DNA of 43,180 bases from contig CALBVY010000014.1 of NCBI GenBank assembly GCA_937969495.1, forward strand, positions 1 through 43,180. Direction: 5' to 3'. Below are positions 1 to 1,018 of this stretch, in pieces. Position 1 is the first letter of the stretch; the number at the start of each line of letters is the position of its first letter. The notes below the pieces were generated by a model, which did no database searches, was not told where the DNA came from, and worked only from the letters and a program-made list of their open reading frames with translations. The position numbers were made by a program, and so were the translations under genes. This DNA is from an uncultured Verrucomicrobiales bacterium. Its GTDB lineage: Bacteria > Verrucomicrobiota > Verrucomicrobiia > Verrucomicrobiales > Akkermansiaceae.

Positions 1-19
1 CGATTTTTGTATTTTTCAT
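1..19 (-). CDS. Start of a B12-riboswitch-controlled gene (cut by window edge)
   Basis: An ATG at 19..17 on the minus strand opens a frame reading M-K-N-T-K-I before the window ends. It lies about 43 bases downstream of a cobalamin riboswitch aptamer, and a possible Shine-Dalgarno (AGGGA at 36..32) sits 12 bases upstream. Genes under such riboswitches are usually cobalamin transporters of the BtuB/TonB-dependent type, cobalamin biosynthesis enzymes, or B12-independent isozymes. Which of these applies cannot be told from six codons. Confidence 0.5.
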
Positions 20-31
20 GGTATTGAGTGG

Positions 32-50
32 TCCCTGTTTAACGCAGGAA
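32..50 (-). promoter_or_regulatory. Expression-platform hairpin masking a Shine-Dalgarno
   Basis: On the minus strand TTCCTG (50..45), loop CGTTAAA (44..38) and CAGGGA (37..32) form a 6-bp stem with one G-U pair. The 3' arm contains AGGGA, the only Shine-Dalgarno-like sequence before the ATG at 19. The hairpin follows the B12 box directly and has no T-tract. Translational control is therefore more likely than termination. The pairing is seen in the sequence; its regulatory role is inferred. Confidence 0.5.
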
Positions 51-61
51 GTTTCTCATAC

Positions 62-240
62 CCTTCAGGCTGGTAGTCTGGCTTGCTTTGGCTGTTTTTT
101 TGAAAAACCTATCCTTGGCTTACAGTGGCGTAACCGCTCCGGAATGATCGTTACCTCATGGCATTGATTTCACCGGATTCCCCATCGATTTCCTGCCCGT
201 GCTACGGGCCTCCCGAAAGGTGCCGTAGCAGAACTGCGGC
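62..240 (-). promoter_or_regulatory. Cobalamin (B12) riboswitch aptamer
   Basis: Read on the minus strand, this stretch carries the hallmark blocks of a cobalamin riboswitch in the right order. A 7-bp stem-loop GCTACGG/CCGTAGC pairs 229..223 with 207..201. The core GAATCCGGTGAAA is at 180..168, and CGCCACTGTA is at 130..121. The 3' B12 box AAGCCAGACTACCAGCC is at 84..68, close to the family consensus. The segment between the core and CGCCACTGTA contains TTCCGGAGCGG, which pairs with the TCCGG of the core. The element starts about 55 bases downstream of the stop of the LolA-like gene, so it probably has its own promoter. It is expected to bind adenosyl- or methylcobalamin and repress the gene starting at 19. 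The outer ends of the aptamer are approximate. Confidence 0.9.
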
Positions 241-295
241 GGGCGGAGACTGGGGTAGGAGAGGGATGATGACAACCCCAAAGTGGATCATACCT

Positions 296-1018
296 CTAAC
301 GCAGTCCTTTTTTGATAGGTTTGGGTTTTTCAAATTCCATGTAGGTGATCCCTGTGACCTTTTGCGTGCCTGTCTTATAGGTTTCTACATTCATCTTCTC
401 AAGTGTTTGCACGTCACCTACTTTCATGGTGTTGGTGACATGGAAGCGCTTCATGAGCTGTCCCTCGCGGTTATAGCCAGAGACCTGCATGAGAGCGCCG
501 AATTTCTGGTGCACCCAGATATAGACAATGCCGTAGCTGCCACCTTTGCTGGGGTTAGTCAGGCGAATTTTGTGGCACTTTTGTGTTTTGATCGTCTCCG
601 TGCCTTCGATCTTGGGGTTAGGCCAGTAGAGGAAGCGAAAGGCGAGATCCTCATAGGTGAGATCGGTATTCATGATAGGCTGAGAGAGCTTGTTATCGGG
701 AAATCTAATGGTCTTTCCGTTGACGATTTCAAAGAGGTCAAAATTGTTTTTTTTCAGTCGCATGTGGAATTTCTGCCACTCTTTCTTTTTATAAAATTGA
801 AACTGAATGTTCTCACCGCGGAGAAAGAGACCGATCGGTATACGCTCGCCTTTTTTCCGTAGATTCCCCGTTAGGCTGTTTTGTTGCAGGGTGGCAGAGA
901 GCCGGACTCCTTCGAGGATTTTTTCTGCCGCTTTATCTGCCTTGGCTGGAGTTGAAAAGATGGCGGTGTAGGCAAAGGCTACGGCGGCAAAAATAGGAAG
1001 GTGAGTTCGGGTTGTCAT
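296..1018 (-). CDS. LolA-like outer membrane lipoprotein-sorting family protein
   Basis: A 240-residue secreted protein. The chosen ATG at 1018 gives a clean signal peptide (residues 1-26: basic start, hydrophobic core, A-K-A site). Longer in-frame starts at 1039 or 1132 only add unrelated sequence, and none has a convincing Shine-Dalgarno. The mature part is beta-rich and has the pattern L-T-Y-E-D-L-A-F-R-F-L-Y-W followed by a C-x-K-I-R-L strand and W-V-H-x-K-F-G-A-L. I associate this with the LolA-like family (the TP0789-type 'lipoprotein-sorting protein' group) common in Verrucomicrobiota. Such proteins probably bind lipid or lipoprotein in the periplasm, but their role is not established. 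It runs head-to-head with the next gene across 158 bases. The family call is from recognition, not from a search. Confidence 0.6.
   Translation of the reverse strand: MTTRTHLPIFAAVAFAYTAIFSTPAKADKAAEKILEGVRLSATLQQNSLTGNLRKKGERIPIGLFLRGENIQFQFYKKKEWQKFHMRLKKNNFDLFEIVNGKTIRFPDNKLSQPIMNTDLTYEDLAFRFLYWPNPKIEGTETIKTQKCHKIRLTNPSKGGSYGIVYIWVHQKFGALMQVSGYNREGQLMKRFHVTNTMKVGDVQTLEKMNVETYKTGTQKVTGITYMEFEKPKPIKKGLR

Follow-up and report, generated by a model that had tools for sequence, protein, structure and literature searches.

The window analysed here, a stretch of 43,180 nucleotides, is an entire contig (C14) of the genome assembly of an Akkermansiaceae bacterium (G000; 2.47 Mb in 98 contigs), and its base 1 is a contig end. 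At this end, on the minus strand, lie a cobalamin riboswitch, a hairpin that adjoins it, and the start of the open reading frame (ORF) that the leader would control, with a gene for a LolA-like protein upstream (Table 1). As the window starts at the contig end, the controlled gene cannot be followed leftward in the present assembly; a pattern search of the genome found the ORF start at the contig end only.

Table 1. Features of the riboswitch locus (window coordinates; sequences read on the minus strand)
Feature	Position	Strand	Sequence	Remarks
Start of controlled ORF	1..19	minus	MKNTKI... (protein)	ATG at 19-17; cut after 19 bases by the contig end
Outer stem, 3' strand	20..28	minus	CUCAAUACC	immediately before the ATG
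P13 regulatory hairpin	32..50	minus	UUCCUG-CGUUAAA-CAGGGA	begins at first base after the Rfam match; TTCCTG 50-45, loop CGTTAAA 44-38, CAGGGA 37-32; ATG at 19-17
L5-L13 kissing pairs 1-3	44-42 / 129-131	minus	C44 G43 U42 (L13)	opposite G129 C130 A131 (L5)
Cobalamin riboswitch aptamer	51..231	minus		RF00174, model positions 1-189 of 189, 33.3 bits, E = 7e-5
Outer stem, 5' strand	55..62	minus	GGUAUGAG	pairs with 28-20; first three bases are the last three of P1
P1, 3' strand	60..69	minus	CCUGAAGGGU	partner of 212-221
B12 box	68..83	minus	AGCCAGACUACCAGCC	CCAGCC in place of Rfam consensus CCuGCC
P5/L5	127..135	minus	GG-UUACG-CC	loop L5 UUACG at 133-129
P1, 5' strand	212..221	minus	ACCUUUCGGG	partner 69-60
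P0 hairpin	222..240	minus	GCCG/CGGC	adjoins P1 on its 5' side; not covered by the paired part of the Rfam model
Upstream neighbor, LolA_like protein	299..1018	minus		PF17131, E = 5.2e-20

The earlier note on this DNA had proposed a B12 riboswitch on the minus strand and had suggested a covariance-model search with the cobalamin riboswitch family. The search bears the proposal out: the RF00174 (Cobalamin) match covers the full length of the model, its score of 33.3 bits is 1.8 bits above the gathering score of 31.5, and it is the single match in the genome at an E value of 0.001 or better. At the same E value, matches were found in 46 of the 58 genomes searched (its own and those of its genus, family, and order), 38 of them above the cut-off. 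Scores range from 23.6 to 42.6 bits across the 28 same-family genomes with this type of leader, its own included; the window riboswitch is barely above the threshold, like the lineage in general. The fold of the window leader is not significantly better than those of its shuffles (z = -1.56, 17 of 200). An RNAalifold consensus of 14 same-genus leaders contains 37 pairs, 17 of them with one or more double changes kept, and comprises P1, P2, P4, P5, P13, and five core pairs (the helix names are our own assignment); in P1, 6 of the 9 predicted pairs have a kept double change. The consensus of the B12 box is rAGYCMGgAgaCCkGCc. The window retains AGCCAG, ACC, and GCC, carries A at the K position, and deviates in the middle, and the CCAGCC variant recurs in 28 of 30 leaders. 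Judged by this match and its conservation, the element is a genuine cobalamin riboswitch of the Akkermansiaceae bacterium, predicted to sense B12.

The 30 leaders used for comparison come from the 46 genomes with a match. Five loci were set aside for other aptamer anatomy: G056, in which a hairpin with a CG loop is present, and G014, G019, G024, and G031, in which none of the P13 form lies next to the match. The comparison also omits eleven loci from other families (G036, G037, G040, G043, G045, G046, G047, G051, G054, G055, and G057); other genes lie downstream in most of these, and a TonB receptor in G046. The near-identical leaders L022, L031, L032, L035, and L037 were excluded from the Fisher tests on the outer stem and P0, and identical rows were merged for the tests on kissing (24 distinct rows) and on the P13 stem (25 distinct rows). 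We assigned the start codons of the 30 leaders from the receptor reading frame; that of G028 is GTG.

The hairpin P0 is recurrent in relatives (Fisher p = 7e-13 over 25 loci against mononucleotide shuffles, versus 0.73 for a control stretch further upstream), with a p of only 0.17 in the window itself by mononucleotide shuffles. We rejected the idea that P0 generally terminates the upstream gene, since in G008 and G005 the hairpin occurs although the nearest gene read upstream of it is divergent.

The pairing of TTCCTG with CAGGGA directly after the B12 box, also claimed in the earlier note, holds up well. All 30 leaders of this type, a set selected by type after a first inspection of the hairpins in 35 loci, have a P13-type hairpin whose loop starts with CG and is closed by G-C. 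The stem covaries; it is down to three pairs in G022 and G050. Stem positions 2, 4, and 5 hold a standard pair in 25, 23, and 25 of the 25 distinct leaders, respectively, counts that none of 10,000 shuffles reached in a test that ignores the relatedness of the rows. By the same test pair 6 is standard in 13 of the 25 rows (322 of 10,000 shuffles), and pairs 7 and 8, in a fixed register, give no signal. The loop of the hairpin is complementary to L5. Kissing pairs 1 and 2 are invariant among the leaders, and pair 3 covaries (U-A, G-C, C-G, and A-U), with 16 of 24 distinct rows forming the pair versus 8.5 expected (4 of 20,000 shuffles, again regardless of relatedness); over all rows it is standard in 22 of 30 leaders and not standard in 8. 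Kissing pairs 4 and 5 give no covariation signal in these leaders, and a kissing helix longer than three pairs was dropped accordingly. Its recurrence, its covarying stem, and a loop able to kiss L5 identify the hairpin as P13, the standard regulatory hairpin of cobalamin riboswitches.

What the leader controls is best read from the relatives. The ORF that follows it carries a TonB Plug domain in 28 of the 28 relatives in which it can be read, and a barrel domain as well in 25; the two leaders of this type without a readable ORF are those of the window (cut 19 bases in) and of G003 (cut 23 bases in). The start codon lies 12 to 23 nt past P13 in the 30 leaders. In the seven same-genus loci whose reading extends far enough (G005, G006, G008, G009, G011, G012, and G013), a binding protein of the BtuF/TroA type follows the receptor, and an ABC ATPase ORF is also found downstream in G013 (both by eye). 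A scan with NCBIfam models covered the proteins of G013 only. The best curated model for its receptor is the TonB-dependent B12 receptor TIGR01779 (4.6e-51), below the curated cut-off, and siderophore receptors are matched too (9e-42), also below cut-off; the binding protein passes the general TroA-like model alone, with IsdE (heme, 3e-25) ahead of BtuF (2e-20), both below cut-off. These family scans fit B12 uptake without proving B12 as the substrate, for which the riboswitch is the stronger argument. A link of the gene to B12 uptake or synthesis had been suggested beforehand, and the receptors in the readable relatives point very probably to uptake. The controlled ORF is thus very probably a btuB-like TonB-dependent receptor gene lost at the contig end, which would place a B12-uptake operon of Akkermansiaceae under cobalamin riboswitch control.

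The rest of this gene was sought in G000 with the receptor of a relative, and the search returned one match of 25% identity, in a 782-aa frame on contig C24. The three Plug-domain ORFs of G000 were ruled out as the continuation of the window ORF, as they have their own starts within their own contigs and other N termini. The BtuF-type protein of a relative found no match in G000, in a search run without a positive control, and PF01497 found none there either, a model that detected its domain in 13 of 14 control genomes. Because neither a close receptor nor a BtuF-type protein was found in G000, we presume that the operon falls into a gap of the assembly. The B12-binding domain is matched twice in the genome, once inside an open frame of 1287 aa that may be a methionine synthase of the MetH kind, which it resembles.

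Upstream of the leader, the LolA_like protein has four named records, all from Akkermansiaceae metagenome-assembled genomes, the nearest 80% identical. In G013, by eye, a LolA-like gene on the same strand and a divergent MSLRxQL gene lie upstream of the riboswitch as they do in the window, at a wider spacing. Two named Akkermansiaceae contigs (L054 and L055) carry a LolA-like gene of 57% identity, and no such leader was seen behind it (by eye, 800 bases each); hence, the LolA-like neighborhood is not fixed.

Two close relatives combine a shared leader with dissimilar receptors. G005 (L035/L085) and G009 (L037/L086) share 96 to 97% DNA identity over 1.5 kb upstream (two pieces, on two G009 contigs) and, in 40-base bins along the leader as far as the ATG, 93 to 100%; past the ATG the bins drop to 25 to 50%. 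Their receptors are 31% identical, their binding proteins 77%, and their upstream DksA-like proteins 99%. Either one receptor has taken the place of another, the breakpoint being at the start codon, or one of the contigs is chimeric. No break so sharp was found in the other pairs compared (e.g., G002/G001, with 0.94 for the leader and 0.93 for the receptor). The contigs of G000 and of G003 (C3, L033) both stop some 20 bases past the start of this ORF, which is where an assembler would be expected to halt if strains share the leader and differ behind it; an exchange with its breakpoint at the start codon, if real, would explain why two assemblies break there. We tentatively raise the possibility, doubtful as it is, that the conserved leader is a fixed control module, switching independently of a Shine-Dalgarno (SD) sequence through closure of the start region by the kissing hairpin and an outer stem, and that whole receptor genes are swapped behind it between close species at the start codon, as in G005 and G009. 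If this is true, the regulatory RNA would be a stable docking point for the swapping of surface receptors.

How the hairpin might act on the gene is a separate question. The earlier note described AGGGA as the only one before the ATG, and it concluded that the hairpin buries it; AGGGA is indeed the sole SD-like word between the 3' strand of P13 and the ATG. On this reading the ligand would stabilize the hairpin and so hide the SD sequence, in the classical manner of Escherichia coli btuB. AGGGA does lie inside the 3' strand, and AGGA or AGGG is kept inside this strand in 9 of the 14 same-genus leaders and in G018, of another genus; E. coli btuB is described as doing just this in passages of PMC11162775, and single genes of SD-poor genomes may use an SD sequence for regulation, as an excerpt of PMC10783764 indicates for rpsU. 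The genome of the window is, however, itself SD-poor, with fewer SD cores ahead of genes than within them. Over 12 other contig stretches of G000, 2 of 116 genes (1.7%) have an SD core at -15 to -5, versus 7.5% at internal control positions, and 5 of 116 have one at -22 to -4; among the window genes the counts are 1 of 27 versus 8.3% and, in a wider interval, 2 of 27 versus 17.9%. For these counts, a gene was taken to begin at the first ATG of an ORF of 150 aa or more. Errors in this assignment would pull a genuine SD signal down to the level of the controls but scarcely past it. Akkermansia muciniphila is listed as SD-scarce in a published survey (PMC10783764, in the excerpt available).

The leaders point the same way. 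AGGGA is 12 nt from the ATG in the window. An SD-like word lies inside the 3' strand of P13 in only 10 of the 30 leaders, touches that strand in 12 (11 to 21 nt from the start), and occurs anywhere from the strand to the AUG in 14; it is unburied in G023 and G044, 6 to 7 nt before the start, and there is none from the strand to the AUG in 16. The leaders that have no such word still pair their P13 stem, through other letters, and it is the pairing that compensating changes have kept. We infer that the AGG within P13 is mainly a stem constraint. Hiding an SD sequence is therefore probably not the main effect of the hairpin, and SD masking is an unlikely account of this switch: the sequence evidence does not place a functional SD sequence in a ligand-stabilized hairpin here.

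A second pairing bears on the start codon more directly. The bases immediately before the AUG are complementary to the linker that precedes P13, and the GGU at the end of the 3' strand of P1 is common to P1 and this outer stem. In the 30 leaders, the own strands reach a mean of -6.8 kcal/mol versus -4.9 when permuted, with 0 of 20,000 permutations as good, in a test that controls neither composition nor relatedness. Against dinucleotide shuffles of 25 loci the Fisher p value is 2e-4, versus 0.95, 0.79, and 0.21 for three control pairings, and the signal is borne by part of the loci (p < 0.1 in 9 of 25). When folded without pseudoknots, P13 is formed in all three computed states (paired probability, 0.98 to 1.00). 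With the aptamer helices enforced in such folds, the 12 nt ahead of the AUG are paired at 0.32 instead of 0.66, as three bases of the outer stem are shared with P1, and four outer-stem pairs survive (in a fold without kissing). The base of the outer stem thus competes with P1, so that its role in the switch may be of either sign; the computed folds do not display a switch.

We consider the best explanation, to which we assign a probability of roughly 0.72, to be that a corrinoid riboswitch leads a B12-uptake operon, in which genes for BtuF-type binding proteins follow a btuB-like receptor gene, and that P13 and the outer stem together would close the start region independently of SD pairing. 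On binding of a corrinoid, L5 would kiss L13 and P13 would be fixed against the aptamer. The fixed P13 and the outer stem, in which the linker before P13 pairs with the bases preceding the AUG, would deny the 30S ribosome access to the start site, and with this site closed, synthesis of the receptor would be shut down. It is the entire start region that would be blocked, rather than an SD sequence, because the genome hardly uses such sequences. The aptamer, P13, the complementary and covarying loops, and the receptor gene of the relatives are seen in the sequences; we infer the chain from ligand through kissing to closed start, and a corrinoid as the ligand, as well as the sign and the level of control, are predictions from the sequences.

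Control at the level of transcription, by premature termination, intrinsic or Rho dependent, in place of blocked ribosome entry, appears quite improbable. Repression of E. coli btuB by AdoCbl is described, in passages of PMC11162775, as acting also via Rho inside the coding region. On the minus strand of window positions 1 to 700, however, no terminator-like site was found, including the intrinsic terminator after the aptamer that characterizes the transcription-terminating class (a single site on the other strand is at shuffle background), and the gap from P13 to the start codon is merely the 12 to 23 nt given above. Since this stretch has no such site, translational control, as first proposed for the window, is the likelier mode.

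It is very unlikely that the outer stem forms in place of P1, such that the ligand frees the start region and switches the gene on. The GGU shared by the 3' strand of P1 and the outer stem would allow this, as would the reduced pairing before the AUG with the aptamer helices enforced. Against it, E. coli btuB is repressed by its ligand (PMC11162775, in the passages available), the four outer pairs persist under the enforced helices in the computation without kissing, and the activating corrinoid riboswitch mentioned in an excerpt of PMC10653944 is one for cobT. A decayed or chance Rfam match without function, which the narrow excess over the gathering score might suggest, is hardly credible given the covariation within genus and family and the receptor gene that adjoins in every readable case.

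Elsewhere in the order, in families other than that of the window, what follows the riboswitch is a small secreted protein whose end is PEP-CTERM-like (L003, L010, L011, L012, L013, and L017); these proteins are alike by eye. Those of L003, L013, and L010 matched no Pfam domain, save for a borderline PEP-CTERM motif in L010. In L005, the riboswitch lies upstream of a DUF4465 protein (E = 1.3e-41), and DUF4465 is reported as a B12-binding domain in an excerpt of PMC13398666. The secreted PEP-CTERM-like proteins behind the riboswitch are candidates for new B12-capture proteins.

By title and opening of the abstract, none of the literature retrieved on cobalamin riboswitches in Verrucomicrobia is on this subject. 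No title on such a leader appears among the matches listed for an Akkermansia cobalamin riboswitch or btuB (best 20 of 104), nor is there a title on an SD-independent riboswitch among those listed for that topic, with cobalamin and Bacteroidetes as terms (best 20 of 49). The leader offers a natural test of a translational riboswitch where ribosomes do not rely on SD pairing.

Among known systems, the E. coli btuB riboswitch, as passages of PMC11162775 describe it, is alike in having a TonB-dependent receptor gene downstream and in engaging P13 in a pseudoknot. A further helix there, P14, governs access to the start site, a role that the outer stem of the window resembles; whereas P14 hides the SD sequence, the outer stem lies in an SD-poor genome and covers the bases directly before the AUG. 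For the Priestia megaterium metE riboswitch, mutagenesis defined just three functional L5-L13 pairs, at the same positions as here, according to excerpts of PMC10653944; this three-pair core is CCG/CGG there and N'CG/CGN here. The metE riboswitch is treated in these excerpts as transcription terminating, in contrast to the window, which has no terminator-like site. The env8HyCbl riboswitch, likened here by its description in the same source, is translational and has an imperfect kissing loop, with a mismatch and a bulge. Compared with RF00174 riboswitches in general, the element is alike in its full-length match, its core helices, the position of its B12 box, and, going by the parts of PMC10653944 available, its L5-L13 kissing with P13 downstream; it is unlike them in the CCAGCC (not CCuGCC) end of its B12 box, its extra P0, and the low bit scores of the whole lineage. 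We conclude that the element belongs to a well-known class of riboswitches, that the B12 box variant and P0 are specific to the lineage, and that this lineage is a divergent one.
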